This document shows positions 37,178 to 64,000 of a stretch of DNA of 64,000 nucleotides, piece by piece (the stretch's first letter is position 1; the number at the start of each line of letters is the position of its first letter). Below the pieces are notes generated by a model. The model did no database searches. It was given only the letters and a program-made list of their open reading frames with translations, and had not been told where the DNA came from. The DNA is taken from positions 620,001 to 684,000 of the forward strand of contig NZ_CP072649.1 of the NCBI RefSeq assembly GCF_018304825.1. Direction: 5' to 3'. Made by a program: the position numbers and the translations under genes. Origin of the DNA: Chloracidobacterium validum. GTDB taxonomy: Bacteria; Acidobacteriota; Blastocatellia; Chloracidobacteriales; Chloracidobacteriaceae.

Positions 37178-37181
<4 letters not shown>

Positions 37182-40759: not shown

Positions 40760-40770
40760 CGGAGGAGACC

Positions 40771-43700
40771 ATGGCGATGACCAACATGGAACGGGTAGGA
40801 CGGGCCCTGGAGGCGCTCAAGGCAGGCCTGGGGCCTTTTGTCGAGCGCGAGGTGCAGTCTGCCATCCAGGCGGGCCGCCTTTCGCCGGAAGCGGTGCGGG
40901 GCTTGGCCGAGGATCCGCTGCTCAAAGGCAAGTCCATGGCTGAGTGGGATGCTTCGCCACTGCTCAAACTCATGTGGGATACCTGGAACGATGTTTTCAG
41001 GCATACCCTGGGCTTTGCCGAGCGCAGCTTGGTGTCGGAAATCCGCGAGTGGCGCAACAAGTGGGCGCACCAGAAGACGTTCTCGAGCGACGACGCCGAC
41101 CGCGCCCTCGACTCCATCGCGCGGCTGCTGACGGCGGTTTCGGCCCCACAGGCTGAGGAAGTGGGCCGGATGAAGCAGGAGCTGCGCCGGCTCATCTTCG
41201 ACGAGCAGGTGCGCAACGAGAAGCGCAAGGTTGGCGGCTCGCTGATCGAGGCCGCCGCGAGCGGTGCGCTCAAGCCGTGGCGCGAGGTCGTCACGCCGCA
41301 CGCCGATGTGGCGAGCGGCCGCTACCAGCAGGCCGAGTTCGCCGCCGACCTCTGGCAGGTCTATCTGGGCGAGGGCGCCGATGAGTACCGAAACCCGAAG
41401 GAGTTCTTCCGCCGCACCTTCCTGACCGGGAGCCTCAAGGGACTCCTGGTCGGCGCGGTGCAGCGCCTCTCGGGCCAGGGCGGCGACCCGGTGGTGCAGC
41501 TCCAGACCAATTTCGGCGGGGGCAAGACCCACTCGATGCTGGCCCTGTATCATCTGTTTTCCGGGGTCAAGCCAAGCGAGCTGGTCGGCGTGGAGGAGGT
41601 GCTGGACAAGGCGGGTCTGAAGGACCTGCCCACCGTGCGGCGGGTCGTGCTGGTGGGGAACAAAATCTCGCCGGGCAACCCCAGCACCAAGCCCGATGGC
41701 ACCGTCGTGCGCACGCTGTGGGGCGAACTGGCCTGGCAACTTGGCGGCAAGCCGGCCTTCGAGCGGATTCGTGCCGATGACGAACGCGCCACCAACCCCG
41801 GCGATGTGCTGCGCGAACTCTTCAACGAGTACGGGCCGTGCCTCGTCCTGATTGACGAGTGGGTGGCCTACGCGCGGCAGCTCCATGACCAGAGCGATCT
41901 GCCGGGGGGGAGCTTTGAGACCCAGTTCACCTTCGCGCAGGCGCTCACCGAGTCGGCCAAGCTCGCCGGCCGTTGCCTGTTGGTGATCTCGCTGCCGGCC
42001 TCGGATACCCATGGCTTGCCGCACACGGCGGCGGATGACGCCGAAGTGGGCGGCCTCCGCGGGCGCGAGGCCCTGGAGCGGCTGCGCAACGTGATTGGAA
42101 GAATCGAGTCGGCGTGGCGTCCGGCCAGCGCCGAGGAGGGCTTCGAGATCGTACGCCGGCGGCTGTTCGAGCCACTGGCCGGACCCGAGGCCTTCAAGCA
42201 GCGCGACGTGACCGCGCGCGCCTTCGCCGACCTCTATCACGCGCAGGGCGCCGAGTTTCCACCCGAGTGCAAGGGGAGCGACTACGAGAAGCGCATCCAG
42301 GCGGCGTACCCGATCCACCCGGAGATCTTCGACCGGCTGTACGAGGACTGGTCCACGCTGCTCAAGTTCCAGCGCACGCGCGGCGTGCTGCGGCTGATGG
42401 CGGCGGTGATCCACAGCCTGTGGGAGAAGGGCGACCGCAACCCGCTGATCCTGCCTTCGACCATCCCGATTGACGATCCGCGCGTGCAGTCCGAGCTGAC
42501 GCGCTACCTCGCGGACAACTGGGCGCCGATCATCGAGAAGGACGTGGACGGGCCGAGTTCGCTGCCGCTGAAGCTCGACGGCGAGCAGCCCAACCTCGGC
42601 AAGCTGCACGCGACGCGGCGAGTGGCGCGGACCATCTTCCTCGGTTCGGCGCCGACGGCGGCCGCGGCGCACCGCGGTCTGGAGGACCGGCACATCAAGC
42701 TCGGCTGCGTGATGCCGGGCGAGTCCCCGGCGGTGTTCGGCGATGCGCTGCGGCGGCTGGCGGCCACGGCGACCTACCTGTACCAGGACGGGCCGCGCTT
42801 CTGGTACGCGACGCAGCCGACGGTCACCAAGCTGGCGGAGGATCGCGCGGAACTGCTCAAGCGCGACCCCGATCAGGTGGCGCAGGAGCTGGAGCGGCGG
42901 CTCAAGGCCAACCTGTGCAATCGCGGCGACTTCGAACGCGTCCATGTGCTGCCGCGCTCGAGCGCGGACGTGGCCGACGATCTGGATACGGGGTTGGTGG
43001 TGCTGGCCGCCGAGCATCCGTACAGCAAAGAGGCCGGAAGCGCGGCCGAGACCGCGGCGCGGGCGATCCTCGAGTCGCGCGGCACCACCCCGCGCCTGTA
43101 CCGCAACACGCTGGTCTTTCTGGCCGCCGACAAGGTGCGCTTGCAGGACCTGGACGAGGCGATCCGCCGGTTCCTGGCCTGGCGGTCCATCCTGGACGAG
43201 AAGGAGGCGCTGAACCTCGACCCGCACCAAGTGCGGCAGGCCGAAACGCAACTACAGGCCGCCGATAGTGCGGTGGCGGCGCGGTTGCCCGAAACCTACC
43301 AGTGGCTGCTGGTGCCAGAGCAAGCGAACCCGCAGGCGGCGCTCACGTGGCAGGCCGTCCGGCTTTCGGGGAACGATGCGCTGGCTGCGCGCGCAAGCAA
43401 GAAGCTCCGCGACGACGAGCTGATGCTCCTCACGCTCGGCGCGACGATGCTGCGCCGGCATCTCGACGCGGTACCGCTGTGGCGGGGCAACCACGTGGCG
43501 ATCAGGCAGCTCATCCAGGACTTTGCCAGTTACCTGTACCTGCCCCGGCTGGCCAGTCCCGGTGTCCTGGTCAAGGCCATCGAAGGCGGGCTATCGCTGC
43601 TCACTTGGCAAGCCGACACCTTCGCTTACGCGGAGCGCTACGACGAGGGCGCTGGTCGCTATCAAGGGTTGCGCGGCGGCCAGGTGGTGCCGCTCTTGCC

Positions 43701-44091
43701 TGAAAGTCCGGGTTTGCTGGTCAAGCCGGACGTGGCGCAGCGCCAGATGGCCGCCGAAGCCCCCGGCGTGCCGGAAACGAGCAAGGTAGATCCGGTGGTC
43801 AAGACCCGCCCGGACCCCGTGGAGTCCGGCACGCAGGCCGAACCCGCAAAGGCAGCACCCCGGCGGTTCCACGGCACGGTCAAGCTTGATCCCGCGCGGG
43901 TCGGCCGTGACGCCGGCCGCATCGCCGAAGAGGTCATTGCCCATCTGACCGCGCAGCTCGGCGCAGAGGTCACGGTCACGCTCGAGATTGAAGCGATGCT
44001 CCCCCACGGGGCCGCGGAGCAACTGGTCCGCACGGTGACCGAGAACAGCCGGACGCTGAAGTTCACCAGTTGTGGCTTCGAGCGGGAATAG
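40771..44091 (+). CDS. HEPN-DUF499 ATPase of the defence module
   Basis: 1106 residues. The N-terminal 115 residues are a Swt1-like HEPN domain with the R-x4-H motif in EWRNKWAHQKTFSS (about residues 93-106), the signature of HEPN ribonucleases. The DUF499 ATPase follows, with a Walker A variant QTNFGGGKTHSMLAL (about 248-262) and VLIDEWVAYARQL as Walker B (about 359). The C-terminal 70 residues form a separate small domain (FHGTVKLDPARVGRDAGRIA). AGGAG lies upstream of ATG 40771, 11 bp after the methyltransferase gene. An attC-like site follows the stop by 29 bp. Probably the motor or effector of the module; mechanism unproven. Confidence 0.85.
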   Translation: MAMTNMERVGRALEALKAGLGPFVEREVQSAIQAGRLSPEAVRGLAEDPLLKGKSMAEWDASPLLKLMWDTWNDVFRHTLGFAERSLVSEIREWRNKWAHQKTFSSDDADRALDSIARLLTAVSAPQAEEVGRMKQELRRLIFDEQVRNEKRKVGGSLIEAAASGALKPWREVVTPHADVASGRYQQAEFAADLWQVYLGEGADEYRNPKEFFRRTFLTGSLKGLLVGAVQRLSGQGGDPVVQLQTNFGGGKTHSMLALYHLFSGVKPSELVGVEEVLDKAGLKDLPTVRRVVLVGNKISPGNPSTKPDGTVVRTLWGELAWQLGGKPAFERIRADDERATNPGDVLRELFNEYGPCLVLIDEWVAYARQLHDQSDLPGGSFETQFTFAQALTESAKLAGRCLLVISLPASDTHGLPHTAADDAEVGGLRGREALERLRNVIGRIESAWRPASAEEGFEIVRRRLFEPLAGPEAFKQRDVTARAFADLYHAQGAEFPPECKGSDYEKRIQAAYPIHPEIFDRLYEDWSTLLKFQRTRGVLRLMAAVIHSLWEKGDRNPLILPSTIPIDDPRVQSELTRYLADNWAPIIEKDVDGPSSLPLKLDGEQPNLGKLHATRRVARTIFLGSAPTAAAAHRGLEDRHIKLGCVMPGESPAVFGDALRRLAATATYLYQDGPRFWYATQPTVTKLAEDRAELLKRDPDQVAQELERRLKANLCNRGDFERVHVLPRSSADVADDLDTGLVVLAAEHPYSKEAGSAAETAARAILESRGTTPRLYRNTLVFLAADKVRLQDLDEAIRRFLAWRSILDEKEALNLDPHQVRQAETQLQAADSAVAARLPETYQWLLVPEQANPQAALTWQAVRLSGNDALAARASKKLRDDELMLLTLGATMLRRHLDAVPLWRGNHVAIRQLIQDFASYLYLPRLASPGVLVKAIEGGLSLLTWQADTFAYAERYDEGAGRYQGLRGGQVVPLLPESPGLLVKPDVAQRQMAAEAPGVPETSKVDPVVKTRPDPVESGTQAEPAKAAPRRFHGTVKLDPARVGRDAGRIAEEVIAHLTAQLGAEVTVTLEIEAMLPHGAAEQLVRTVTENSRTLKFTSCGFERE

Positions 44092-47694: not shown

Positions 47695-48702
47695 ATGGAT
47701 ATCAAACCACGCCTGCATTTTCGCCAACTCGAACGCTTCACATGGATTCACGCTGAAATCCAGTCCGGGCGGTTTCCAAACACTTGCTCGATTGCCGAGA
47801 AATTTGAAATTTCGCGCAAAACCGCGCAGGAAACAATCGCTTTCATGCGTGATCGCTTCAACTTGCCACTTGCCTACAGCGGGCGGCAACGCGGGTTTTA
47901 TTATACCGAGCCGGTTCACTCGCTTCCGTGGCTGACGCTCACGGAAGGTGAAGTTGCGGCTATTCTTATAGCCGAACGATTAGCTCAGGCATACGCCGGC
48001 GGACTCTCATCAGACATTGCCAATGTTTTGGTGAAAGTTGTGCAGTCGTTCACGGATAGGGTATCGGTTGATTTGACGCACTTGCTGAACGCGCAGTCAG
48101 TTGAACCACTACCAACCAGTTCCATCAACCATGAGCATTTCAAGGCGCTCCTGCAGGCCATTGCTCAACACAAACGCATTTACATGAATTACTTCACCCA
48201 AAGTTCGGGTGAGACAAAGGCACGAAAACTTGATCCGTTGCACCTACATAGCGCCCGGGCCGAGTGGTACGTCATTGGCTTCGATCACCTACGAAACAAG
48301 GTGCTGGATTTTCATTTAGGACGCATTCGTGAGATTACGGTACTCGATGAAACGTTTGAACCACCAACTGGCTTTGACATCGAACGATATCTGGCGCGCG
48401 GATTCGGGATGATTCGCGGTGATGGACAGCTTTATGACGTGGTCGTGCAGTTTGACGCTTACCAGGCACGGTGGATTCGTCAACAAAGTAAGGTTCACAA
48501 GACGGCTCTTTATGAAGACCTGCCAGATGGGGGATTGCGGGTCACGATGCAGGTCGGCGCGCTGGAAGGCGTCAAGCAGTGGGTTATGCAGTACGGTGCG
48601 CATGTGCAGGTCGTGGCTCCGCCGGCCCTACGCGACTTGGTACGGCGAGAGGCAGAAGCCCTGCTGGCTCACTACTCCGATGCGGCAAAAGAGGCTACCT
48701 GA
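47695..48702 (+). CDS. WYL-domain transcription regulator
   Basis: 335 residues. An N-terminal winged helix-turn-helix (NTCSIAEKFEISRKTAQETI, about residues 29-48), the WYL domain with RAEWYVIGFDHLRNKVLDFH (about 178-197) and a C-terminal WCX segment. WYL proteins bind nucleic-acid or nucleotide ligands and often control CRISPR and other defence loci. Its place ahead of the Argonaute gene and CRISPR operon suggests such a role; this is inference. ATG 47695 is overlapped by no other gene; trpD is divergent. Confidence 0.85.
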   Translation: MDIKPRLHFRQLERFTWIHAEIQSGRFPNTCSIAEKFEISRKTAQETIAFMRDRFNLPLAYSGRQRGFYYTEPVHSLPWLTLTEGEVAAILIAERLAQAYAGGLSSDIANVLVKVVQSFTDRVSVDLTHLLNAQSVEPLPTSSINHEHFKALLQAIAQHKRIYMNYFTQSSGETKARKLDPLHLHSARAEWYVIGFDHLRNKVLDFHLGRIREITVLDETFEPPTGFDIERYLARGFGMIRGDGQLYDVVVQFDAYQARWIRQQSKVHKTALYEDLPDGGLRVTMQVGALEGVKQWVMQYGAHVQVVAPPALRDLVRREAEALLAHYSDAAKEAT

Positions 48703-48805: not shown

Positions 48806-51028
48806 ATGAATCTCAATCTTGGATTAACGAAAACTAAAGTTTTGTTAAATAGATTTAAAGTAAAAAAGCTGGACAGATATGACTTAAAATTTCACGAGTA
48901 CAAATGTAACTTCAAAAATAATCCAAAGCTCGGGGATGAACAAAAAGCTATCTCCAGAATCTGCTACAAATTAGATAAAATCGCTGTTAGACTAGGTAGT
49001 AAAATAATCACAAGAGAAGAAATCAGCCAAGAAAAAATGAAACATGAAGATTGGGATTTGTCAAAATTAACAACAAGAAACCTCGATTGTAAAAATCCAG
49101 AAGAGCAAAAAGGTATTGAAGCTTTCGAACGTAAAATTTTAGAAAAAGAACTGACAAATGCCTTTCCTTCAATGAAAGTTGAAAGATCGCCTGGGCATGG
49201 ACTCATCTGGTGGATTCCCGGTAAAGAAGGTATAGAGAAATCCGGAGATGGATGGGAAATTCACAGAGGTAGAGAAGTAGATATCGTTTTAGAATCAGAC
49301 GGAAATCTCTACTTAGAAATCGACGTACACTACCGGTTCTTTACACCCTGGACACTTCACCAATGGTTGGCAGAGTATCCTGACATTCCCGTTAGGTATG
49401 TGCGGAACACATACAAAAGTGAAAAGAATGACCATATTAGCTGGATTTACGAAGGTATCTCAGAAAAGCGACCGGAAGAGTTTATGATACCTGAGCTAAA
49501 TGAGACCTTAGCAGATTATCACCGTAAGTTGGGAGCTACGGAAGGGGAGATAAACGATTCAAAAGTTGTACTTGTTAGGAGAATGAACGATCGAAAGTCC
49601 AAACCAATTGGACACCTCTCTAAAAGACTATCACCTAGCTTAACGATGGAAATGCTGGCACAAGTTCTTGAAAAACAAGCCTCTGAGAAAAAAACAAACA
49701 AGGACGTTCTTCAAATTATCAGGAAGGACATAGATAGTCGTTTAGTTTCGTCAAAGGATACAGCAGCAAAAATCCTAAGAAAAGTATATAAAATTGCCGC
49801 TGAAAATCAAAAAATCCAGATCTGTGAGGTAGATGGATACATTCTGCCGAAAGCGAATCTTTTAGCCAAAGACGGCAATAAAGTAACCAAGGTTGCCCAA
49901 GTCAGGCAAAAAGGATGCGTTGCAAAAGGCGAAATAAAATTTGGATGCCTTAACCTATTTAATAACGCTCACAAGTACCCAGATGAAGTGAAAAAATGTT
50001 TACAAGAAGTAGCAAAGAGTAGCAATGTGAACATAGAAATAGAATCGTACCGAACAGCAAATGATCTAAGCGACATCGAACTAGAACGGAAAGATTTCTG
50101 GGAAACCTGGTCCGAAGAAGGAGTCAAAACAGTTTTAGTAGTTCTTCCTTGGTCTTCTAGCGAGAAAAAGCAAAAAATTAGGAATGAGGCACTACAAGCA
50201 GGAATAGCCACCCAGTTCATCGTGCCGACACCAAAGGCAGACAAAAACAAAGCCCTGAATGTGGTCCTAGGGCTTCTTTGCAAGGCCGGTTGGCAGCCTG
50301 TAAAGCTGGGGGGAGTTAACCTGCCTGACATGGCTGAACTCATCATCGGTTTTGATGTGGGGAGCAATCAAGGCCTCTTTTACGGCGCTTCCGCATTCGC
50401 AGTTCTTACAGATGGACAAAGCCTGGGTTGGGAGCTGCCAAGCATACAAATGGGAGAGACGTTCCCCGACGAAGCAGTTTGGCAAGTGGTTTCTAATTTG
50501 CTCTTCAAATTTAGAGAAAGTCGTGGAGCATATCCTAAAAAACTGCTTCTAATGAGGGATGGTCTGGTTCAGAGAGGAGAGTTCGAAAAAACCATAAGTG
50601 AACTCGGGAAAATGAAGATAGCTGTTGACATCATAGGAGTCCGCAAAAGTGGCGCTAGCAGAATGGGAAAGAAAGTTTCCACACAAGCAGGGAAGGAAAC
50701 TTATTGTGACGCAGACATAGGCACCGTTGTTTTCAGGCAAGAAGAGAAGTCGTTCACTTTGATAACGAGTCAGCCCATCAAATCCGAAAATAGAACAATC
50801 GGAAGCGCAAGACCGCTCAAGGTAGTCCATGAGTACGGTGACACTTCCCTGGAATTATTAGCCCTGCAAACTTATCACCTATCTCAGCTACATCCTGCCA
50901 GTGGGTTTCAATCGTGTCGCTTGCCCTGGGTTCTACACTTGGCTGACAGAAGTAGCAAGGAGTTTCAACGTATAGGACAGATAAGCATTTTGCACAACAT
51001 TGACCGCAAAAAATTGATTGCCGTTTAG
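48806..51028 (+). CDS. ago: long prokaryotic Argonaute, catalytically complete
   Basis: 740 residues. Order: N and linker (1-150), PAZ-like (about 150-290), MID (about 380-500; KIRNEALQAGIATQFIVPTP with the conserved Gln, and NVVLGLLCKAGWQP with the Lys that holds the guide 5' phosphate) and PIWI. PIWI residues D517 (IIGFDVGS), E551 (MGETF), D585 (LLMRDGLV) and D714 (HLADRS) make a DEDD tetrad; the 34-residue steps between the first three equal those of Thermus Ago (478, 512, 546). It is therefore predicted to cut targets. AAGGAGG precedes the ATG. The gene is strongly AT-rich in a GC-rich region, a sign of transfer. Next to CRISPR genes, as in Marinitoga. Confidence 0.92.
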   Translation: MNLNLGLTKTKVLLNRFKVKKLDRYDLKFHEYKCNFKNNPKLGDEQKAISRICYKLDKIAVRLGSKIITREEISQEKMKHEDWDLSKLTTRNLDCKNPEEQKGIEAFERKILEKELTNAFPSMKVERSPGHGLIWWIPGKEGIEKSGDGWEIHRGREVDIVLESDGNLYLEIDVHYRFFTPWTLHQWLAEYPDIPVRYVRNTYKSEKNDHISWIYEGISEKRPEEFMIPELNETLADYHRKLGATEGEINDSKVVLVRRMNDRKSKPIGHLSKRLSPSLTMEMLAQVLEKQASEKKTNKDVLQIIRKDIDSRLVSSKDTAAKILRKVYKIAAENQKIQICEVDGYILPKANLLAKDGNKVTKVAQVRQKGCVAKGEIKFGCLNLFNNAHKYPDEVKKCLQEVAKSSNVNIEIESYRTANDLSDIELERKDFWETWSEEGVKTVLVVLPWSSSEKKQKIRNEALQAGIATQFIVPTPKADKNKALNVVLGLLCKAGWQPVKLGGVNLPDMAELIIGFDVGSNQGLFYGASAFAVLTDGQSLGWELPSIQMGETFPDEAVWQVVSNLLFKFRESRGAYPKKLLLMRDGLVQRGEFEKTISELGKMKIAVDIIGVRKSGASRMGKKVSTQAGKETYCDADIGTVVFRQEEKSFTLITSQPIKSENRTIGSARPLKVVHEYGDTSLELLALQTYHLSQLHPASGFQSCRLPWVLHLADRSSKEFQRIGQISILHNIDRKKLIAV

Positions 51029-51314: not shown

Positions 51315-51415
51315 CAGAAGATCGCCTCACGGCGTCAAAGATTACCCTAAATGATTCACTTAAGGGAGCTTACACTCTAGTGCTCAACGCCTTGCAGCAG
51401 GAGCAAATGATAATC
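51315..51415 (-). ncRNA. CreR-like mini-CRISPR: two degenerate repeats around one spacer
   Basis: Read on the minus strand, the first degenerate repeat (51415-51380) keeps the last 14 bases of the CRISPR repeat exactly (AAGGCGTTGAGCAC, the stem 3' side plus 8-nt handle); a 29-nt spacer-like sequence follows (51379-51351); the second repeat (51350-51315) keeps the core TAATCTTTGACGCCG and a GCC/GGC stem. Matches to the 36-nt repeat are 24 and 22 of 36. This is the degeneration pattern of CreA/CreR RNAs, which recruit Cascade without cleavage. A weak minus-strand promoter (TCAACA, 17 bp, TATCAT) could start the RNA near 51400. Confidence 0.65.
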
Positions 51416-51431
51416 CGGACAAGCAGGCTTG

Positions 51432-51459
51432 TTGACACAGGCCGATCGAGTGTGATTCT
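51432..51459 (+). promoter_or_regulatory. possible promoter of the cas operon
   Basis: TTGACA (51432-51437), 16 bp, GATTCT (51454-51459). The -35 box is perfect, the -10 weak. The start point would be near 51466, just ahead of the pseudo-protospacer at 51476-51494. Its -35 overlaps the possible minus-strand promoter of the mini-CRISPR. Confidence 0.35.
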
Positions 51460-51475
51460 TTCCGGCAGCTCTTAG

Positions 51476-51494
51476 TTATGGAACTTACTCTCTA
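51476..51494 (-). promoter_or_regulatory. partial protospacer for the CreR-like RNA
   Basis: On the minus strand it reads TAGAGAGTAAGTTCC and onward, against TAGAGTGTAAGCTCC in the spacer. Positions 1-5, 7-11, 13-15, 17 and 19 match; 6, 12, 16 and 18 do not. The flank on the PAM side is ATG. Binding here would block the cas promoter. Confidence 0.6.
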
Positions 51495-51646
51495 CATACT
51501 GCAAAGTAGACTCATATCCTTGGTATCAACTTAGGGTGTTTCCTCTGCTTGCTAGGGATTCGTGACGTGACTGCATCGTACTACGCACCTTGGGTCAAAA
51601 AGTACAAGCCCAACACCCAAACCATAACACTTTGGAGGGACATAAC

Positions 51647-52243
51647 ATGCTGAAAACTGTTGAGTTGTGTTTTTTTGTTTCCGGGGACTGGTTGCCGGTT
51701 GATCACGGCTATCACTTGTATGCCGCTGTTGCGCGTCACCTGGAATGGGTTCATGACAATCCTGACATTGGTATTGCGCCACTGCGCGGCATCTACGGCG
51801 GCAATGGCAAACTGCTGCTTCAGCCGTGGAGTCGGTTGATTATACGAACTCCCACCGAAAAGCTCCCCGCGCTGCTGAAGCTGGCGGGCCGTCAGCTTGA
51901 TGTGGATGGCCGGCGGCTACGGGTTAGTATTCCAACTGTGCATTCGTTGGTGTCCGCTCCAGTACTTTACGCACACTTGGTAACCACCAAAAACGGCGAC
52001 GATGAGACGCGCTTTGACGCTGAAATTACACGCCAACTGAATCAAATCAACGTTGCCGGCCACGTTGAACGCGGCGCACGCCGAACGCTGTCCGTTCACG
52101 GCCGTCGCATTGTGGGCTATTCGCTTACCATTTCGCAGTTGAGTGAGGAAGGGGCTGTCATCCTGCAGGCGGTCGGTCTTGGCGGTCGCCGCAGAATGGG
52201 CTGCGGCATTTTTTTTGCCCGAAAAGAAAGTGAGCTGCGATGA
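51647..52243 (+). CDS. cas6: Cas6, MYXAN (Cmx6) type
   Basis: 198 residues. Cuts the pre-crRNA at the base of the repeat hairpin. VELCFFVSGDWLPVDHGYHL at the start and the glycine-rich C-terminal loop AVGLGGRRRMGCGIFF (RAMP signature GhGxxRxxGxG) identify it as the Cmx6-like variant. The His in DHGYHLYAAVARH is a candidate catalytic residue. ATG 51647 has GGAGG 10 bp upstream. First gene of the cas operon, overlapping cas3 by 4 bp. The repeat's stem ends 8 nt before the repeat end, which fits the usual 8-nt crRNA handle. Confidence 0.85.
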   Translation: MLKTVELCFFVSGDWLPVDHGYHLYAAVARHLEWVHDNPDIGIAPLRGIYGGNGKLLLQPWSRLIIRTPTEKLPALLKLAGRQLDVDGRRLRVSIPTVHSLVSAPVLYAHLVTTKNGDDETRFDAEITRQLNQINVAGHVERGARRTLSVHGRRIVGYSLTISQLSEEGAVILQAVGLGGRRRMGCGIFFARKESELR

Positions 52244-54693
52244 CGAAGCATCCACGACACTTACTTGCCAAATCGTATTCCACTCAAAAGTACCCCCAAA
52301 TCCCCCCGGACTACGCCCTGCTCACGCAGCACAGCCGCGACGTTGCCGAAGCGTGTGCCGCACTGACTCGTGTCATTGGGCCGGTCATTGAAGAATATGC
52401 CAACGTCCAACTGGGGGCTGACGATTTCACAAGAGCTGGCAAAGCTACCGGGTGGGTTGAGGACCTAGGCAAGGCTAACAGTCACTTTCAATTGATGTTG
52501 GCAGGTCAGCCGCAGATCAAGCAGCTACTTCGCCACGAAATAATTTCGGGGCTGCTACTCTGGCAGAACCAGCCCCTGCGGCAATGGATCGAGCCGTCAC
52601 TAGGCGAATGGTTCATCCCGGCATTGTGGGCGGCGATGGGACACCATTTGAGATTTGACAGGGACACCAGGGCCGATAGCAACTGCCCATCCCTCACGGT
52701 TTTTTTGGCGCACAAGGATTTCAAGTCTATTTTGGGCGAACTTGGTTCTGACTTGGCTTTGACTGAGCCACCACCAGATCTGACCGACTTCACGATTGCG
52801 GCCGACAAGAGAGAGCCTTGCGATGTCGCTGCGTTGAACGCTCTCCGCAACCTGAAAGATGACTTCGAGGAAGCTAAGGAGAAGTTTTCGAGCGACGAAT
52901 GGCGTAAGCGAATCGCTGTGCTAAAAGCACTTGGTATCGCTGCTGACGTTGCGGCCAGCGCGGTTGCGGCCGAAGGCCAAATGAAGTCAAATTACTCGTT
53001 GACTACATTCATCAACGAAGCATTGCAAGTTGGTCTCACTGACTCGGATTGCCAACAACTGATTGACAACTGGGCGTCGAGACATTGTGAGGGAAACTTA
53101 CAGGTTCGCCCGTTCCAGCGTGCCGTCGCCGACTCGCCAAGTTTCGTCACCCTTGCGCGTGCCGGCTGTGGGTCAGGTAAAAGCTTGGCCGCGTACTTGT
53201 GGGCGAAGGCTTGGTGCGCAAAAACAACGGCCGGAGAAAAAACAACGGTCGAAGGTCGGAGCTTTCGGCTTTTCTTCTGCCTACCGACGACCGGAACGAC
53301 CACTGAACACTTCAAGGATTATGCCCTTGAATCAGGCATTCCTGCCAGCCTTACGCACTCGCGGTCAGAGGTTGATTTGAAATCCCTGGCCCAGACTGCC
53401 GATCAAGAATCCAACTTCAACGTTAGGGACGCAGCGATTGGCGCGCTCATTGATGCCCGCGACAAAATCGAATCGTTGGCGCTGTGGGACACACCACTCG
53501 TTGTGTCAACGGCCGACACCGTACTGGGGTTGATGGGCAATGCGCGCAGGTCACTCTATGCATTTCCGGCGATTGTATCCAGCGCCATTGTTTTCGACGA
53601 GATTCACGCCTTCGATGACCGACTGTTCGGTCATCTCCTCATGTTCTTGAAGTATTTCCCTCGTCAACCGGTGCTGCTGATGACGGCTTCTCTCCCCCAG
53701 CACCGTTTGGACGCTTTGCAGAGCATTCGGAACGATCTGCACATTGTTGATGGCCCCCCTGAACTGGAAAGACTTGAACGGTACCAGCTCGATCACGGTG
53801 AGGACGAACAGAAGGTTTGGGATGCCATCAAAGCCTGCGTCCAGAGTAACGGGAAAGTGCTGTGGGTGCGCAATCGTGTTGACTGGGCTAACCAAGCCTA
53901 TGAAGCGTGTTTGGAGCGTTTTCCCGAGGTGATGGTCAATGTTTATCACTCAAGGTTTCGCTACAAGGATCGAAGTCGGTTGCACCGCCATGTCATTGAC
54001 CACTTCAAGCAGAAGCCGAAGCAAGCCCAGATTTTGATTGCGACGCAAGTGGCGGAAATGTCCCTCGATTTGTCGGCGGATTTGCTTGTCACCGACATCG
54101 CACCGATTCCATCACTCATTCAGCGGCTAGGACGGTTAAATCGAGAGCCTTGGCCTTCTGCGCCAAAATCTGCGTTAGTTTGTCCACTCCCGGCTGCAAT
54201 GGGCCAAGGCGATGACCCAGCATTGCCTTACGTTGCAGACGACCTAAGCGCAGCCGAAATGTGGTTGACGAAGCTCATTGAGAAAGGCACGCCACTGAGT
54301 CAGTTCGACCTCGCCGATGCTTTTGGCTGCCTCTCCCACACCGAAGCCTTTGACATTTGTATGGCTGAAGAAAAGGCGTGTTTCTTTTCCGGCCTGTGGG
54401 AAACCCGCCCGGGCAAGACACGCGAGGATGGATACACGATAAGCGTCATTCTTGAGGTAGACCTGAACCAATGCCACCAACGCAACCGCCATGGCGAACC
54501 AACGCGCGACTGGCTGACCGAACACGAAGTCGCCATTCCATTCAAATCTGAGGTCTTGAAATGGGGCGTCGTTGGAAATCGGCGCGTCGCGCCGTCCCAG
54601 TGTATTACCTATGACTTTGACCCAACAACCATGAAAGGAGTGGGAGCGCGATGGGCAAGCGGCCAACCAATTACCAACTGCCAAATCCTTTGA
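52240..54693 (+). CDS. cas3: Cas3 helicase-nuclease
   Basis: 817 residues. An N-terminal HD-type domain (HSRDVAEACAAL, then EDLGKANSHF near residue 72, LLRHEIISGLLL, MGHHLRFD) and a superfamily 2 helicase: Walker A ARAGCGSGKSLAAYL (about 304), DEIHAFD (about 456), MTASLPQHR, ATQVAEMSLDLSAD and QRLGRLNRE. It unwinds and degrades Cascade-bound target DNA. The usual HDxGK nuclease motif reads EDLGK here: His is Glu. The gene overlaps cas6 by 4 and cas8 by 43 bp. Confidence 0.9.
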   Translation: MTKHPRHLLAKSYSTQKYPQIPPDYALLTQHSRDVAEACAALTRVIGPVIEEYANVQLGADDFTRAGKATGWVEDLGKANSHFQLMLAGQPQIKQLLRHEIISGLLLWQNQPLRQWIEPSLGEWFIPALWAAMGHHLRFDRDTRADSNCPSLTVFLAHKDFKSILGELGSDLALTEPPPDLTDFTIAADKREPCDVAALNALRNLKDDFEEAKEKFSSDEWRKRIAVLKALGIAADVAASAVAAEGQMKSNYSLTTFINEALQVGLTDSDCQQLIDNWASRHCEGNLQVRPFQRAVADSPSFVTLARAGCGSGKSLAAYLWAKAWCAKTTAGEKTTVEGRSFRLFFCLPTTGTTTEHFKDYALESGIPASLTHSRSEVDLKSLAQTADQESNFNVRDAAIGALIDARDKIESLALWDTPLVVSTADTVLGLMGNARRSLYAFPAIVSSAIVFDEIHAFDDRLFGHLLMFLKYFPRQPVLLMTASLPQHRLDALQSIRNDLHIVDGPPELERLERYQLDHGEDEQKVWDAIKACVQSNGKVLWVRNRVDWANQAYEACLERFPEVMVNVYHSRFRYKDRSRLHRHVIDHFKQKPKQAQILIATQVAEMSLDLSADLLVTDIAPIPSLIQRLGRLNREPWPSAPKSALVCPLPAAMGQGDDPALPYVADDLSAAEMWLTKLIEKGTPLSQFDLADAFGCLSHTEAFDICMAEEKACFFSGLWETRPGKTREDGYTISVILEVDLNQCHQRNRHGEPTRDWLTEHEVAIPFKSEVLKWGVVGNRRVAPSQCITYDFDPTTMKGVGARWASGQPITNCQIL

Positions 54694-56231
54694 CTTACAA
54701 CCTCAAAAACCCAAACTACACGATCTACCATCGCGCGGCTCTGGGCGGTTTGGCGGCAACGATTCAGGCATGGCAGGACAAACCCGGCCTTGCGCCGCAA
54801 GGCATCCGTGCTCAGGTTTGCGAAGATGCGGTGGAGATTTCCTGGGATAGCTCGCTGGCACTTCAGGAGGTCATCCAACGCCTCCTGAAAGCGTCGTTTC
54901 TGCTCACCGAAAACAAGCTCATTGACCTTCCCGGCCAGGGCATTCCACCCGACCGCAACGATCTGCGCTTGGCGATCCATACCGGATTGTGCGGAACGTT
55001 TCTCCAGCACAACAAGATGCGCCCCGGCGAAAAGGCACCGCGAGCGCTGTCGGTGCGGGATGAGGGCGACGAAAACGCAAGCATCTTCACCTACAAAGCT
55101 GTCAACGCCTATGCGCATCAAACAGCGCAAGGAACAGGCTTGCTCGACGCAAAGCTGAACGGTGAACTGCCGCAAACAGCCTCGATCCCGCAATCCATTG
55201 TGCCGGGCGCGATGTCAGGCGCGACAGGACTCGAAGGGCCTCCAGAGGATGTGCTTCTGTTGCTGTATCTGATGGTCGGCTCGGCGGTTTTTCTGTTGCG
55301 TCCGCAAACCTACCGAGACAAAGCACAGTACTGCCTTGTTGTGCCCGACGTCACAAACTTGAAGCGCTTTGCGGTGAACCTGCGGGAAATCGCAGCTTAC
55401 GGCACGAACCTCATGCGATTCACCAATACTTATCTTGGCCGTGTCGTCGGAGGCGCGGAGGAGGCCGCATTACGTTTCTTGATTGATTTGCAGGCAGGTG
55501 ATCTTACCGAAGAATTTGAGCGCTGTGTATCGGGCTGTCTTGCCATAGCCATGGGCAAAGTCGCTTGGGACAAGAACCAAGTCAACCGTAGCCAAGTTGT
55601 TCGTGTCAAAGGCAACTACCCAGAAATCGGTGTTTTTCGCGCTGCCGCGCAGCATTTCAGCCGGGCACGCATCGTGACATCGAAGGAAGGTGCAAGTTTT
55701 GCCGTCCCGCAAAGCCCTTTACCGGAACTTGTCGCGGCAAACTTGGCAGCGGAGCGTCATTGGTGCGCGCATTTCATCGATCTCTGCAAGGAACAGCAGG
55801 ACTTCACGAATCTCAAATTTCAAAAGGGAGGACTGGCAGCCATGAACAAAGCCATCAAAGACGCTGACGATCAAACCATTGTCAACGTCTTTCACGAAGC
55901 ATGGCGATTGACAATGGGCGCACTCGGCGAACGCGCCCGGAAAGACGGACTTGATTTTAGTCGTCTTATTGAAGTCGAGCGTGAGCGGGTTCGCAACGCT
56001 ATCCTACGTGCCAAGACTGCCGATGCGCTGGCAAGCTGGTTTCTGCGTTTCTGCGCGGATGCCACCAGAGGGGCGTCACTTTCGGCAATGAGGCACGATA
56101 CCAACCGCATCCGTGAGTTCATCTTCAACCGGCGCAATTTTGAGCGGTTCCAGAACCTGTGTCTGTTTGCGCTGGTCAGCTACTCGGCTGAAGAGGCCAA
56201 AAACCACACCCAAGGAGAACCCGAAGCATGA
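54651..56231 (+). CDS. cas8: Cas8, large subunit of the type I-MYXAN effector (Cmx8-like)
   Basis: 526 residues. PNYTIYHRAALGGLAATIQA at the start is the opening typical of Cmx8/Cas8a-like proteins; the middle (RDKAQYCLVVPDVTNLKRFA) and C-terminal helices (FLRFCADATRGASLSAMRHD) also fit. It recognises the PAM in the Cascade complex. It overlaps cas3 and cas7 in coding sequence, so expression is coupled. Large subunits diverge strongly, so the assignment rests on position and overall pattern. Confidence 0.78.
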   Translation: MGKRPTNYQLPNPLTYNLKNPNYTIYHRAALGGLAATIQAWQDKPGLAPQGIRAQVCEDAVEISWDSSLALQEVIQRLLKASFLLTENKLIDLPGQGIPPDRNDLRLAIHTGLCGTFLQHNKMRPGEKAPRALSVRDEGDENASIFTYKAVNAYAHQTAQGTGLLDAKLNGELPQTASIPQSIVPGAMSGATGLEGPPEDVLLLLYLMVGSAVFLLRPQTYRDKAQYCLVVPDVTNLKRFAVNLREIAAYGTNLMRFTNTYLGRVVGGAEEAALRFLIDLQAGDLTEEFERCVSGCLAIAMGKVAWDKNQVNRSQVVRVKGNYPEIGVFRAAAQHFSRARIVTSKEGASFAVPQSPLPELVAANLAAERHWCAHFIDLCKEQQDFTNLKFQKGGLAAMNKAIKDADDQTIVNVFHEAWRLTMGALGERARKDGLDFSRLIEVERERVRNAILRAKTADALASWFLRFCADATRGASLSAMRHDTNRIREFIFNRRNFERFQNLCLFALVSYSAEEAKNHTQGEPEA

Positions 56232-57232
56232 CGACCCATTACCTTTATGCCACCATTCTCACGGGCGAGGCTGTCGCCGCCAACAATCGCGGTGACAACA
56301 TCGGCAACACAACGACCTTACAGAAGGTTTTTCATCAAGACGACCTGCACACCAGCGTTTCCGCTGAAGCGATTCGCTTTGCGTTCCGCTATCGCTTTCA
56401 GCTTCAGGGGATACCTGTCAATCGCAGTTACGACGGCGAGAAGCTCCATTACCAGGATGAAAAACGCGCCGGTTGGAATCCATCGCATCCCAATAGCGTG
56501 CTGATTGATGATGATTTGATGGGTTTCATGGATGCCGCCGCTGCCCAAGCCGAACAAGAAGCCGAAGCCGACCAAGCGGACTCAGAGCTTTCGGGCGCCG
56601 CAACCGAGGCAACACCACCCAAAGCCCCGCGGAAGGCGAAGGCGAGAGGCGTGACGACGAAGCGCACGAGTCCGCTTGCAGTGGGTCGCGCCGTCTCGCT
56701 TCGTCCATATCGTGGTGAAATCTCATTCAACTGTGTCAGCGGGGTGAAGGAAAAGGGTAGGCTGTCGCTCTATGCCGCCGAGATGCACACGACGGAATAC
56801 CAGTACAGCATCGGGTTAAACCTGAACGATGTCGTCAACAAAAAGCACATTGCAGACCTTATTGACGCACTGGTCGATCCGCCGCCAGTTGCCGGCAATC
56901 ACTCGCGGTTCGCCTATGACTTTTCACCCCAATCCATCGTGCTGCGCGTGACCTCGGCTCACTCATCGAGGATCCAAAACTGCTTCGAGCATGACGAAAA
57001 CAGCCGCGCGTACACCGTCCGGGGGCTGATCAGACGGGTGAGAAGCCATGACATCACGGCAAGTGAGCTGATCGTTGGTGGTGAACTGGCAGAAACGCCC
57101 GAAGGCGAAGTATTGAAGTCTTTGGGGGTGCTGACGTTTCCAGGCGTCGCTGCGGCGGCGAACGAAGCTCGCGCGCGCATCGCCAACCTTGATCCCATGT
57201 TTGCCGTCGTCGCCAATGGGAGGTCTTCGTGA
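56228..57232 (+). CDS. cas7: Cas7 (DevR family), Cascade backbone
   Basis: 334 residues. MTTHYLYATILTGEAVAANN then TTLQKVFHQDDLHTSVSAEA, RFAFRYRFQ is the DevR/Cst2 signature; it coats the crRNA. An acidic, low-complexity insertion (AQAEQEAEADQADSELSGAA, about residues 103-140) is probably a disordered loop. Overlaps cas8 and cas5 by 4 bp each. Confidence 0.88.
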   Translation: MTTHYLYATILTGEAVAANNRGDNIGNTTTLQKVFHQDDLHTSVSAEAIRFAFRYRFQLQGIPVNRSYDGEKLHYQDEKRAGWNPSHPNSVLIDDDLMGFMDAAAAQAEQEAEADQADSELSGAATEATPPKAPRKAKARGVTTKRTSPLAVGRAVSLRPYRGEISFNCVSGVKEKGRLSLYAAEMHTTEYQYSIGLNLNDVVNKKHIADLIDALVDPPPVAGNHSRFAYDFSPQSIVLRVTSAHSSRIQNCFEHDENSRAYTVRGLIRRVRSHDITASELIVGGELAETPEGEVLKSLGVLTFPGVAAAANEARARIANLDPMFAVVANGRSS

Positions 57233-57906
57233 TTACGCTGCGCATCGAAGTCCCCTACGCAAGCTTCCGCAAATCCTATGCCCGCGCCTTTGCGGAGACT
57301 TACCCGCTGCCAACGCCGGCCACGGTTTACGGCATGCTGCTGTCGTTGGTTGGAGAACGTTTTCGCGCGCGGCATCAAGGCGTCCGGTTAGCCTTTGCCT
57401 TCAGCGGAAAGTATGAAGATGACCGACCACGGCAATCACCGTTTCCAAAAATAGCAATGACGGTGCGCAAGTTGAGCCGTTACAAATACGGTGTTCCGGC
57501 GAAACAATCGAAGCTGGGTAACACGCTCGACTACATTGAGACCCTGTGCGACTTGGAGTTTCTCTGTTGGGTTGACTCCCAGTCGGAAACCAACAACCCG
57601 CCAAACCTCGAAACCCGCATCACCACGGCGCTGACACAGCCGGAGAGCGTGACCCGGTATGGCGTGTTGAGCCTGGGCCTCAGTGATGACGCGGTGAACG
57701 ATGTGAGGCTTGTCGCCGGAGTCAACTACGGTTGTTGGCACTGGCTTCGTCCGCATCCAGCCGGTTCACTGGAACTACCGATTTGGGTCGATCATGTCGG
57801 GTCGGCTGGTACGCGCTGGCAACGTTACGATCTGGAAACAGAACCAAGCCAGTTCCCTCTCGAACCTTCGGAACAACACTGGACACTGATTATGCCGCCG
57901 AACTGA
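57229..57906 (+). CDS. cas5: Cas5 (DevS family)
   Basis: 225 residues from GTG 57229. ITLRIEVPYASFRKSYARAF then ETYPLPTPATVYGMLLSLVG is the Cas5 N-terminal signature, which grips the 5' handle of the crRNA. The C-terminus is short (WTLIMPPN). It overlaps cas7 by 4 bp and is followed by a 484-bp gap with a degenerate CRISPR repeat before the adaptation genes. Confidence 0.88.
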   Translation: MITLRIEVPYASFRKSYARAFAETYPLPTPATVYGMLLSLVGERFRARHQGVRLAFAFSGKYEDDRPRQSPFPKIAMTVRKLSRYKYGVPAKQSKLGNTLDYIETLCDLEFLCWVDSQSETNNPPNLETRITTALTQPESVTRYGVLSLGLSDDAVNDVRLVAGVNYGCWHWLRPHPAGSLELPIWVDHVGSAGTRWQRYDLETEPSQFPLEPSEQHWTLIMPPN

Positions 57907-57947: not shown

Positions 57948-58390
57948 GTCATTGTTTCAGGGCGCCCGAGTAGAGGTCGCGCAAGGCAAACGTCAGCTTC
58001 GGTTGGTCAATGTGGAGGATGGACACATCGTCGCGGTCTTCCGCGGCGCGCGTCAATTCGACCAGCGGGGCGCACGCCTTCCCTTGCGTTGAGCGCAGCA
58101 CTCGCCGACCAGTTGGCGGAAAGATGGCGCGCGCGTTGATTCCGCCAGACCTGCGTACGATTTGACCTTACCAAGACTCGTGTCGTTTGTCGGAGACCGC
58201 TTCCAGTTGAAAATATTCTTCAAGGGAAAAATAGGGCGCGGGTTGGCAGACATAGTTCCTTCGGCGATGCGTGTCGAAAGCACGCTGTTCTACGGTAAAA
58301 GGCGATCTTGGCGAAGCGCGGTCCGAATGCCTTCATCTGCGATGCTGAAAGGCGATGCCCCCCAATTTTGCACTCGGAGATAGATGTGTC
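57948..58390. other. intergenic stretch between cas5 and cas4-cas1
   Basis: No gene is convincing. TTGCGTTGAGCGCAGCAC at 58085-58102 resembles the repeat end GGCGTTGAGCAC with a 4-bp insertion and could close a second mini-CRISPR. GGAG near 58376 serves the next gene. Confidence 0.45.
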
Positions 58391-60076
58391 ATGACATCGC
58401 TCGATGCTTCTACGCCACTCACGCGCGTGATGGCGCTGCATGCGCTCAACTACTGCGAACGACTGTTTTACCTTGAAGAAGTCGAAGAAATTCGCCTGGC
58501 CGATGACCGTGTGTACGCCGGCCGCCGGCTGCACCAGCAGGACATCACAGAAGGGATCGAAACCCTTACCTATGAAATCGAAAGCGAGGACTGGGGTATT
58601 CGCGGCAAGGTGGACGCCGTGCGTTACCGTGACGGCTCGCTGGTTGCTTACGAACACAAGAAGGGACGCTCAAATCGCCGCCAGGCGTGGGAAAGCGACC
58701 AACTACAAGTGATTGCCTACTGCGCGCTCCTTGCGGAAGCAACCGGGAAGGCCATTTCCGAAGGACGTATCCATTACCATGCTGACAACGTGACGGTGCG
58801 CGTACCGTTCGACGAGTCCGCGCGGATGGAACTCCGGGCAGCCGTTGCGCGGGCTAATGCGTTGCGTCAAACCACAGACCGTCCGCCCTTGACTGAAGAC
58901 TCGCGTCGGTGCAAGCGCTGCTCCCTCGCGCCAGTATGCTTGCCTGAAGAAGAACGCTTTGCCAGCACAGAGCAACGAGAAACCCAAATGGATAGCGCGG
59001 CAAGCCCATCCCAAGCACCGCCGCGTCTTTTTCCCGAACGCGAGGAACGTCGCGTCTTGCACATCACTGAACCAGGCAGCCAAGTTGAGCGCGCAGTTGA
59101 GCAACTTGTGGTCAAGTTCCCAGACCGCCCGGCCATTTGCTTCCCCGGACGTGACATTGCCACCATCGTTCTGCACGGCCCAACGCAAATCACGACTCAG
59201 GCGTTGCACTACTGTGCGGCCAACGGCATTGCCGTCCAGTGGCTGACGGGTGGCGGTAACTTTGTTGCTGCCTTGAGCGTGGGCGCGCCGGGCGTCCAGC
59301 GGCGGCATCGGCAATACGCGGCCCTCTCCGATCCTGACTTCAGACTCAACCTTGCCCGTCGCCTCGCTCTGGCCAAGGTCGAGAACCAACTTCGCTATCT
59401 TTTGCGTCTGACCCGACCTTCTTCGGGTAGCGCTGACCTAAGCGGCGAAGCACGCGCGGAGCTGGTCGCATCCAACCTAGCGCGGATGCGGCAGGCGCTG
59501 GCCCAGCTTTCCAAAGCCGAAACCTTTGATGCCATCCGCGGTTATGAAGGACAAGCCGGGCAGGCCTACTTTGAGGTGTTAGCCCGACTCGTTCAGGTAG
59601 ACGAGTTTCGTTTTTCTGGCAGAAGTCGGCGTCCGCCGCGTGACCGCTTCAACGCCCTGTTGAGTTTCTTTTATGCGCTCGCGCACAAGGATTGTTTGGC
59701 CGCCCTACTGTCCGTCGGGCTTGAACCTGCGTTTGGGTTCCTGCACACGCCACGCAGCCCAGCCCATCCGCTGGCGCTTGACCTTTTGGAGCTGTTCCGG
59801 GTTCTTTTAGCGGACATGCCCGTTCTGGGGTCTGTCAATCGCAGGCAGTGGGATACACAAGCCGACTTCATCGTAACGCCTCACAAAGTCTGGCTCTCAC
59901 TCGAAGGCAAGCGCAAGGCATTGAGCATCTACGAGGAACGCAAACAAGAAACCTGGAAGCATCCGGTCTTGCGTTACTCACTTTCGTACCAGCGCACGAT
60001 TGAACTCGAAGCCCGCCTGCTTGAAAAGGAATGGACTGGCAAACCAGGTCTGTTTGCGCGGATGCGACTTCGCTGA
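58391..60076 (+). CDS. cas4-cas1: Cas4-Cas1 fusion, spacer acquisition
   Basis: 561 residues. Residues 1-200 are Cas4: Cys in LNYCERLFYLEE, RecB-like nuclease residues in GIRGKVDAVRYRDGSLVAYE (Asp) and EHKKGRS (Glu, Lys), and the iron-sulfur Cys set in CKRCSLAPVC. Residues about 220-561 are Cas1: PGRDIATIVLHGPTQITTQA, catalytic Glu in GQAYFEVLARLV, His in FLHTPRSPAHP and Asp/Glu in LALDLLELFR. The fusion selects and trims PAM-bearing pre-spacers and integrates them. Such fusions occur in type I-G and MYXAN systems. ATG 58391 has GGAG upstream; 58355 is a longer alternative. Confidence 0.9.
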   Translation: MTSLDASTPLTRVMALHALNYCERLFYLEEVEEIRLADDRVYAGRRLHQQDITEGIETLTYEIESEDWGIRGKVDAVRYRDGSLVAYEHKKGRSNRRQAWESDQLQVIAYCALLAEATGKAISEGRIHYHADNVTVRVPFDESARMELRAAVARANALRQTTDRPPLTEDSRRCKRCSLAPVCLPEEERFASTEQRETQMDSAASPSQAPPRLFPEREERRVLHITEPGSQVERAVEQLVVKFPDRPAICFPGRDIATIVLHGPTQITTQALHYCAANGIAVQWLTGGGNFVAALSVGAPGVQRRHRQYAALSDPDFRLNLARRLALAKVENQLRYLLRLTRPSSGSADLSGEARAELVASNLARMRQALAQLSKAETFDAIRGYEGQAGQAYFEVLARLVQVDEFRFSGRSRRPPRDRFNALLSFFYALAHKDCLAALLSVGLEPAFGFLHTPRSPAHPLALDLLELFRVLLADMPVLGSVNRRQWDTQADFIVTPHKVWLSLEGKRKALSIYEERKQETWKHPVLRYSLSYQRTIELEARLLEKEWTGKPGLFARMRLR

Positions 60077-60147: not shown

Positions 60148-60435
60148 ATGGAAAAACACTGGTATCTGGTCAGTTACGATGTGCGTAATCCAAAACGCTG
60201 GCGACGAGTCTATGAGCGCGTACGTGGCAGTGCGGAACGGGTGCAGTATTCTGTCTTTCGGATGTATGCCACCCGAACCGAACTCGAAGCGTTTCGCTGC
60301 GACTTGGTTCGGCTCATGGATGATGAGGATGACTTGCTCATCGTTCACTTGTGTACGGGATGCGCGCGGCGTGTCGTGGATACGTCAAGACAACAGAATT
60401 GGAACGAGGAGCGACGGCAGGTTGAAATTCTGTGA
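60148..60435 (+). CDS. cas2: Cas2
   Basis: 95 residues. EKHWYLVSYDVRNPKRWRRV carries the conserved Asp of the Cas2 ferredoxin fold; RVQYSVFRMYATRTELEAFR and DLLIVHLCTGCARRV complete it. It forms the integrase complex with Cas1. GGAGG precedes the ATG. Followed by the leader and array on the same strand. Confidence 0.92.
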   Translation: MEKHWYLVSYDVRNPKRWRRVYERVRGSAERVQYSVFRMYATRTELEAFRCDLVRLMDDEDDLLIVHLCTGCARRVVDTSRQQNWNEERRQVEIL

Positions 60436-63600: not shown

Positions 63601-64000
63601 AAAACTTATGCGAATTAATCTTTGATGCCGTAAGGCGTTGAGCACCGAATAATTATCAATGAATATGACACGAAATTAGTGCGAATTAATCTTTGATGCC
63701 GTAAGGCGTTGAGCACCGTCATGTGGACGGCACGCTCTTTCGCGAGCCGACCAGCGAATTAATCTTTGATGCCGTAAGGCGTTGAGCACGCACGCTCTGG
63801 CGCTCGTACACGGCGGTAGAGCGGATGCGAATTAATCTTTGATGCCGTAAGGCGTTGAGCACGCGACGGCGTTTGTCCCCAGCGCCGTCGCGTTCAGCGA
63901 ATTAATCTTTGATGCCGTAAGGCGTTGAGCACTCTATAAATCCAACCACGTGCCGTTTAGCGGTTCGGCGAATTAATCTTTGATGCCGTAAGGCGTTGAG
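60674..64000 (+). CRISPR. CRISPR array, at least 47 repeats, runs off the window
   Basis: 47 copies of a 36-bp repeat starting at 60674, with period 70-74 bp and spacers of 34-38 bp; the last copy (63968) is cut by the edge. All visible copies look identical, including the last. The repeat contains GATGCCGTAAGGCGT, a stem of GCC/GGC with GTAA loop, and ends TTGAGCAC, an 8-nt handle if Cas6 cuts at the stem base on the plus strand. Transcription is therefore rightward from the leader. The lack of decay and the length suggest active use. Confidence 0.97.

Follow-up and report, generated by a model that had tools for sequence, protein, structure and literature searches.

Directly upstream of the cas6 gene of Chloracidobacterium validum, two degenerate CRISPR repeats enclose a single spacer, which raises the question of whether the cas operon at this locus is repressed by its own Cas proteins under the guidance of a crRNA-like RNA. 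Such cas-regulating RNAs, called CreR, were reportedly described by Liu and colleagues in 2023 in Cell Host Microbe. The window, i.e. the whole stretch of DNA analysed, comprises 64,000 nucleotides (contig NZ_CP072649.1, positions 620,001 to 684,000 of the forward strand) of a genome of 3.66 Mb in two contigs.

The window encodes a complete type I-MYXAN system, with the cas genes on the plus strand and NCBIfam matches above the cut-off for each component, among them the core and HD models of Cas3 and the N-terminal model of Cas8. The first gene of the operon is cas6 (Cmx6; 51647-52243; TIGR02807, 183 bits), which has a GGAGGG ribosome-binding site and whose start codon was assigned from the sequence. 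The other genes are cas3 (52240-54693; TIGR01587 and TIGR01596), cas8a1/cmx1, coding for Cas8b (54651-56231; TIGR03485), a cas7 of the DevR family (56228-57232; TIGR02585 and TIGR01875), cas5 (DevS; 57229-57906; TIGR02586), a cas4-cas1 fusion (58355-60076; TIGR03983 and TIGR00372) and cas2 (60148-60435; TIGR01573). The model of the Cas8 C-terminus scored slightly under its cut-off (44.4 versus 47.4). Cas6, Cas8 and Cas7 also matched chains of PDB entry 8fcj, which we take to be PmcCAST (E-values 1.1e-25, 1.9e-12 and 7.4e-32, respectively), and the Cas8 chain of this entry is named 'Type I-MYXAN Cas8a1/Cmx1'. A CRISPR array (60674-64000, plus strand) runs beyond the end of the window; its repeat, GCGAATTAATCTTTGATGCCGTAAGGCGTTGAGCAC on the plus strand, is present in 66 genomic copies with at most three mismatches, all on one strand. 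Repeated or near-identical spacers occur in the array within the window (60674-64000) and at locus L058, e.g. two identical neighbours beginning GGGTGGAGTCC. Other defence genes are located nearby, namely Hma-like genes (37178-44091, plus strand) for an HmaB methylase and an HmaC ATPase with a Swt1-like HEPN domain, and a gene for a prokaryotic Argonaute (48806-51028, plus strand; PADLOC pAgo, E 1e-281; Pfam PAZ_3), which stands between the gene of a WYL regulator (47695-48702) and cas6.

The element upstream of cas6 is a degenerate mini-CRISPR on the minus strand with the order PsiR1, spacer, PsiR2. PsiR1 (51380-51415), which is identical to the array repeat at 24 of 36 positions, retains the final 14 bases AAGGCGTTGAGCAC, including the complete 8-nt 5' handle TTGAGCAC (8/8), while 16 of the remaining 28 positions match and the repeat-type hairpin is mostly gone. 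The 29-nt spacer (51351-51379) begins with TAGAGTGTAAGCTCC. PsiR2 (51315-51350; 22/36 identical) shows the complementary pattern, having kept the hairpin CGCC-GTGA-GGCG and 20 of the 28 bases of the 5' part and lost the handle (2/8). Taken singly these repeats are unremarkable, another 24/36 match occurring by chance elsewhere in the window; as a pair they score 46/72 versus 39 for the runner-up pair in positions 1-60600, and the highest value among the controls was 41 when the same positions were shuffled 30 times and 40 when a 1.2-kb stretch was shuffled 2000 times. The coordinates and the pair score agree with the original prediction of two reverse-oriented degenerate repeats flanking a 29-nt spacer. 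RNA folding of the element and repeats was at most mildly better than that of shuffled sequences (z from -0.9 to -2.05), and an Rfam scan of the window gave nothing at the gathering score.

The spacer has a protospacer-like target in the cas6 upstream region (51477-51494, minus strand; masked score 14/15), separated by 152 nt from the cas6 ATG and flanked by a PAM ATG (51495-51497, minus strand). The minus strand from 51497 to 51478 reads ATG followed by TAGAGAGTAAGTTCCAT, and the spacer reads TAGAGTGTAAGCTCCCT; over the first 19 bases the spacer pairs with the target from 51494 onwards except at positions 6, 12, 16 and 18, exactly as had been claimed. The spacer-target distance, given earlier as 100 bp, had to be corrected, since the two starts are 115 bp apart. 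The 15-mer TAGAGNGTAAGNTCC, with positions 6 and 12 left free, has two perfect sites in the 3.66-Mb genome, which are the spacer and the target, and its third-best site has one mismatch.

The predicted cas promoter, TTGACA-N16-GATTCT (51432-51466, plus strand), would start transcription near 51466 and ends just before the target, which would lie at about +12 to +29; it was predicted with an E. coli-like matrix and is absent from the list of a stricter consensus scan. A consensus-predicted promoter for the CreR-like RNA, TCAACA-17-TATCAT (51400-51435, minus strand), has its start near 51400, inside PsiR1, and the predicted -35 boxes of the two promoters overlap. In the window (51430-51437), and also at locus L028, the predicted cas -35 box and the best or second-best predicted -35 box of the opposite-strand RNA coincide on one TTGACAC, so that the two promoters would be divergent and overlapping. 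Over the seven loci described below, the overlap of target and predicted promoter was modestly above random with the E. coli-like matrix (Fisher p 0.038), the locus L071 being no better than random. The best predicted RNA start is 20-28 nt upstream of the spacer, a range chosen post hoc, in four of the seven elements (L022, L028, L025 and L073); a start at 16 nt was second best in L021, and those of L069 and L071 were elsewhere. A start inside PsiR1 would account for the loss of the 5' part of this repeat.

These features, together with the recurrence described below, make it very probable, as judged from the sequence, that the element is the gene of a CreR-type guide RNA, with which Cascade would hold down the cas promoter without cleaving it. 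We infer that the element is transcribed and processed as follows. The minus-strand transcript would begin near 51400 and be cut by Cas6 at PsiR2, and perhaps at PsiR1 too, yielding a crRNA-like RNA composed of the handle UUGAGCAC, the 29-nt spacer and a 3' hairpin. The Cascade of the locus itself (Cas8, Cas7, Cas5 and Cas6), loaded with this guide, would read the PAM ATG and pair over about 17-19 bases next to the promoter of cas6, with positions 6, 12 and 18 flipped out and therefore tolerant of mismatches. Such pairing would be too short for cleavage by Cas3, yet would block transcription of cas6-cas3-cas8-cas7-cas5-cas4/1-cas2; a precedent is the type I-B system of H. hispanica, where a spacer shortened to 24 bp still repressed while interference was gone, according to the cited part of PMC10989794. 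By analogy with published CreR, the physiological sense may be that repression scales with free Cascade and is lifted once crRNAs or anti-CRISPRs occupy it.

Cas6 loci were sampled from the class of the window (19/162 genomes) and from its phylum (12/396, overlapping the class), with further loci from three other classes of the phylum (1/5, 4/93 and 3/148), one Phycisphaerae contig and nine plasmid records. A search with the single Cas6 sequence of the window, not an alignment, found none in viral_contigs and one in genome_contigs (L059). In total, 37 regions upstream of cas6 were scored for the handle, the PsiR2 hairpin and the best spacer match, with positions 6, 12 and 18 ignored and the PAM left free; the scan required a handle of at least 6/8 and kept the top-scoring place of each region, and shuffled sequences were scanned identically. 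Excluded before this count were L065 (71 nt only), L063 (a weak match in a long frame) and L029 (a partial second cas6 in genome G023), and the plasmid record NC_014533.1, with a partial MYXAN cas6, was left out of the sample. Within the 37, L015 and L028 share a genome, as do L067 and L068. The cas6 start is approximate in L064 and L068, whose whole loci were scanned in both orientations (best scores 28 and 26); the other starts were taken from alignments, possibly some codons off, and distances were re-measured to the likely ATG.

The maximum score among 222 dinucleotide shuffles was 29. The full set of two degenerate repeats, a spacer and a matching target was found in six of the 37 regions, each with a different spacer: L071 from plasmid pSYLB (NZ_CP007544.1, about 41,137-41,236) of Synechocystis sp. 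PCC 6714 and L069 from a plasmid of Gloeothece citriformis PCC 7424 (both 35), the window (33), and L028 (genome G014), L025 (G057) and L021 (G062), each with 32. The last three (L028/L047, L025/L056 and L021/L053) belong to the class of the window and to other families. L073 from Cylindrospermopsis (score 30, target 11/15, PAM ATG) is probably a seventh element, as far as its sequence indicates; its target is not above the array-spacer background in the 18-nt score (11 versus up to 12). Element and cas6 are on opposite strands in all four loci from the class of the window, but share a strand in the three cyanobacteria. The target is separated from the cas6 ATG by 46 nt in L021, 107 nt in L025, 152 nt in the window and 206 nt in the fourth locus of this class. 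In all seven elements with their own repeat known, PsiR2 keeps 1-3 of the 8 handle bases and PsiR1 6-8, the latter figure being partly by construction since the scan demanded 6/8. Covariation in the PsiR2 stem was not better than in shuffles (79/500). The PsiR2 of the four elements of the window's class reads GCGAT (GCGAA in L075) versus GCGTT in the array repeats, and this T-to-A change sits just 3' of the presumed Cas6 cut site.

Two further candidates were not counted. L072 (score 31) proved to be a mini-array whose repeats are intact; its best target is 10/15 with the PAM TGA. L075, from a plasmid of Nostoc sp. CENA543 (score 29), has two degenerate repeats and a 31-nt spacer near 8910, upstream of cas6, with a best target of 11/15 and the PAM ATC; no target above background was found in 18.6 kb, and the element may target a distant gene or may have decayed. 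Persistence of the repeats with loss of the match, named in advance as evidence against the proposal, is thus represented by L075 only, against six clear matches and one probable match. The remaining 28 of the 37 regions score at most 27, inside the range of the shuffles, and most MYXAN loci are therefore without the element. Background scores were also obtained for L076 (27), where cas6 is the single annotated cas gene of the stretch, and for the CAST-like L077 from a plasmid of Gloeothece verrucosa PCC 7822 (25). The latter carries MYXAN-type cas6-cas8-cas7-cas5, no annotated cas3 and a TniQ gene nearby, resembling a type I-B CRISPR-associated transposon.

A DNA search of seven genomes of the same genus gave, beyond the window itself, weak short matches only (about 35 bp in G002, and a stretch of the window's own array). 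The evidence is therefore one of recurrence rather than homology, the arrangement recurring with different spacer/target pairs in two bacterial groups.

The targets of these pairs follow a common rule. An earlier scan had imposed the PAM ATG; in the unconstrained scan, from which the present result is taken, the PAM is ATG in all six clear elements and in L073, although the seventh count is partly circular because L073 was rated probable partly by its PAM. When 231 array spacers from six of these loci were compared with their own upstream regions, the best site had the PAM ATG in 3/231, and 2/231 reached a target score of at least 13, the six clear CreR-like spacers scoring 13-15. Counting seed positions 1-5 and 7-11 next to ATG, the seven CreR-like spacers match at 10, 9, 10, 9, 10, 9 and 10 positions; of 1617 tests of array spacers against regions, none reached 10 and four reached at least 9, and CreR-like spacers tested against the wrong locus gave at most 7/10. 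Plain Hamming scoring recovers the same site in six of the seven elements, L073 being the exception.

The mismatches are likewise not spread evenly. Position 6 is mismatched in 6/7 elements versus 3/70 at the remaining positions of 1-11 (p 2.4e-6), and in 5/6 versus 3/60 when L073 is left out (p 3.6e-5); position 12 is mismatched in 4/7 and position 18 in 5/7. In the window the pairing does not extend past position 19, and in the remaining five clear elements it stops at about 17-22; over all seven it is lost beyond about position 20. The MYXAN Cascade of Synechocystis PCC 6714, studied in purified form, has a preference for AYG as PAM, and its structure was solved on an ATG target with every sixth base flipped out, as given in the cited part of PMC11096372; the PAM of PmcCAST is reported as 5'-ATG in that of PMC12719977. 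The PAM at the window target fits both, and the position 6 mismatches fit the flipped-out base described for this Cascade, in line with the original suggestion that mismatches are tolerated at every sixth base. The plasmid locus L071, the sole MYXAN cas6 found for PCC 6714, is taken to be the same system as the purified Cascade, and the target of its element has ATG. An independent PAM from the array of the window was sought with two 24-base spacer patterns in viral_contigs, with no match. The structural predictions of the CreR proposal that could be examined held, apart from promoter overlap, for which the indication is weak. The common PAM and mismatch rule can be taken as a readout of DNA recognition by the MYXAN effector, and the presence of one element in Synechocystis sp. 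PCC 6714, for whose MYXAN Cascade the structure and the PAM have been determined, makes repression directly testable.

The neighbourhood of the element differs among loci. In the relatives G001 and G005 of the same genus, which have no element above background, the WYL gene directly adjoins cas6. The WYL gene of L071 is separated from cas6 by the element, a small ORF and hicBA. The small ORF of L071 (8291-8485, 65 aa) is homologous to that of L069 (8625-8846, 74 aa), with 52.8% identity over 36 residues; neither has a confident Pfam match, and a YabA-like match of the L069 ORF was below cut-off and was not used. In these two plasmids cas6 is thus not the gene that immediately follows the target, and the ORF is possibly a toxin or an accessory protein under CreR control. 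A cas6 match of 29 residues was seen in four Synechocystis records, of which one was examined, namely plasmid pSYSM of Synechocystis PCC 6803 (L078), where a cas6-like relict (2492-2701; 29 residues, 89.7% to the PCC 6714 Cas6) is annotated as belonging to a recombinase family. About 5 nt separate it from the end of the WYL gene, leaving no room for an element, and the relict appears to be what is left of a MYXAN locus into which no element was inserted. As a conjecture, the element may take over control once cas6 is parted from the WYL gene.

The same anatomy would be expected of an addiction module like CreTA or CrePA, in which the guide silences the promoter of an RNA or protein toxin located between target and cas6, and repression of cas is secondary. 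The RNA resembles CreA in its build, homologous ORFs of 65-74 aa lie behind the target in L071 and L069, hicBA precedes cas6 in L071, and a tiny CreT-like ORF could be accommodated in the 152 nt of the window. However, between the target and cas6 the window has no ORF of at least 80 aa besides cas6 itself and no terminator-like site on the plus strand, and the short gaps of L021 and L025 leave little room for a toxin. We therefore regard an addiction module as unlikely.

It is still less likely that the mini-CRISPR is the remnant of a dead array, devoid of function, whose spacer resembles the nearby sequence by chance or was acquired from it. Both repeats are indeed degenerate and no leader-like array context was seen at the mini-CRISPR, but they are degenerate in a complementary manner, six clear elements have matching targets adjacent to cas6, the PAM is uniform in these six, and the seed mismatches fall at positions 6 and 12 and hardly elsewhere; this explanation was already disfavoured. 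The least credible explanation holds that spacer and target are two operators of a DNA-binding regulator, such as the WYL protein, and that the likeness to repeats is incidental. A WYL gene is located upstream in many loci, and in most of them the target repeats the spacer in direct orientation; on the other side, the motif is wholly different at each locus, as reflected in the wrong-locus best of 7/10, starts at the first base after the handle in every element, is inverted in L028 and obeys the 5+1 rule of Cascade.

The reading as a CreR-type guide RNA connects this locus with several known systems. Autorepression by CreR is reported for types I-B, I-E and V-A in the cited part of PMC13131331, and CreR is also treated in PMC12737573 and PMC12948488. 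The present element shares with CreR, as outlined in these sources, a mini-CRISPR outside the array, a crRNA-like RNA and limited complementarity to the own cas promoter, with no toxin needed; it differs in belonging to the MYXAN (Cas8a1/Cmx1 or Cmx8) branch of bacterial I-B and is known here from sequence. Since MYXAN systems are now a subdivision of I-B (PMC11096372, in the part cited) and CreR is known in I-B, the kind of element is already known, and the original remark of knowing no such element for a MYXAN-type system should be toned down. Literature queries that did not pair the two words met no report of CreR in MYXAN systems; this does not count as a sign of absence, and the primary CreR survey may include MYXAN. 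The six clear pairs and one probable pair, all different, would extend CreR-type control to the MYXAN branch and to two bacterial groups.

The CreA RNA of haloarchaeal I-B CreTA is also similar, having two highly degenerate repeats, of which PsiR1 retains the 8-nt 5' handle and PsiR2 the 3' hairpin part, and partial pairing with its target; in contrast to the window, where the next gene is cas6, the target of CreA drives an RNA toxin, as described in the cited part of PMC8501985. In CrePA, Cascade is likewise led to a promoter by a crRNA-like RNA (PMC12737573, in the part cited), whereas no KilA-N or other toxin gene was found behind the target in the window, where cas6 comes next; in L071, hicBA could play that part.

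A further parallel is the dev operon of Myxococcus xanthus, whose related Cas8, Cas7 and Cas5 proteins (DevTRS) are proposed to act as repressors of the operon that encodes them; this system is not known to have a guide RNA. According to the cited part of PMC8616872, which files the system under I-C, the mechanism of this autoregulation is unknown, the activities of Cas3 and Cas6 are dispensable, and matching spacers are seemingly absent. Searches for matching spacers would miss a guide that is degenerate and matches in part; that Cas6 activity is not needed speaks against a guide RNA in dev. It is a tentative and rather doubtful extension that self-repression by guide RNA forms a recurrent layer across MYXAN systems, re-invented with new spacers when a cas operon leaves its WYL gene and gains a promoter, and that it also underlies the 'DevR autoregulator' of dev, with guides starting inside PsiR1 and needing little or no Cas6 at the 5' end. 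If this were true for dev, one would expect a degenerate handle of the GGCGTTGAGCAC type with a hairpin-bearing repeat behind it and, close to the dev promoter, a partial match flanked by ATG, which provides a concrete hypothesis for how Cas proteins of the DevR/DevS type may repress their own operon.
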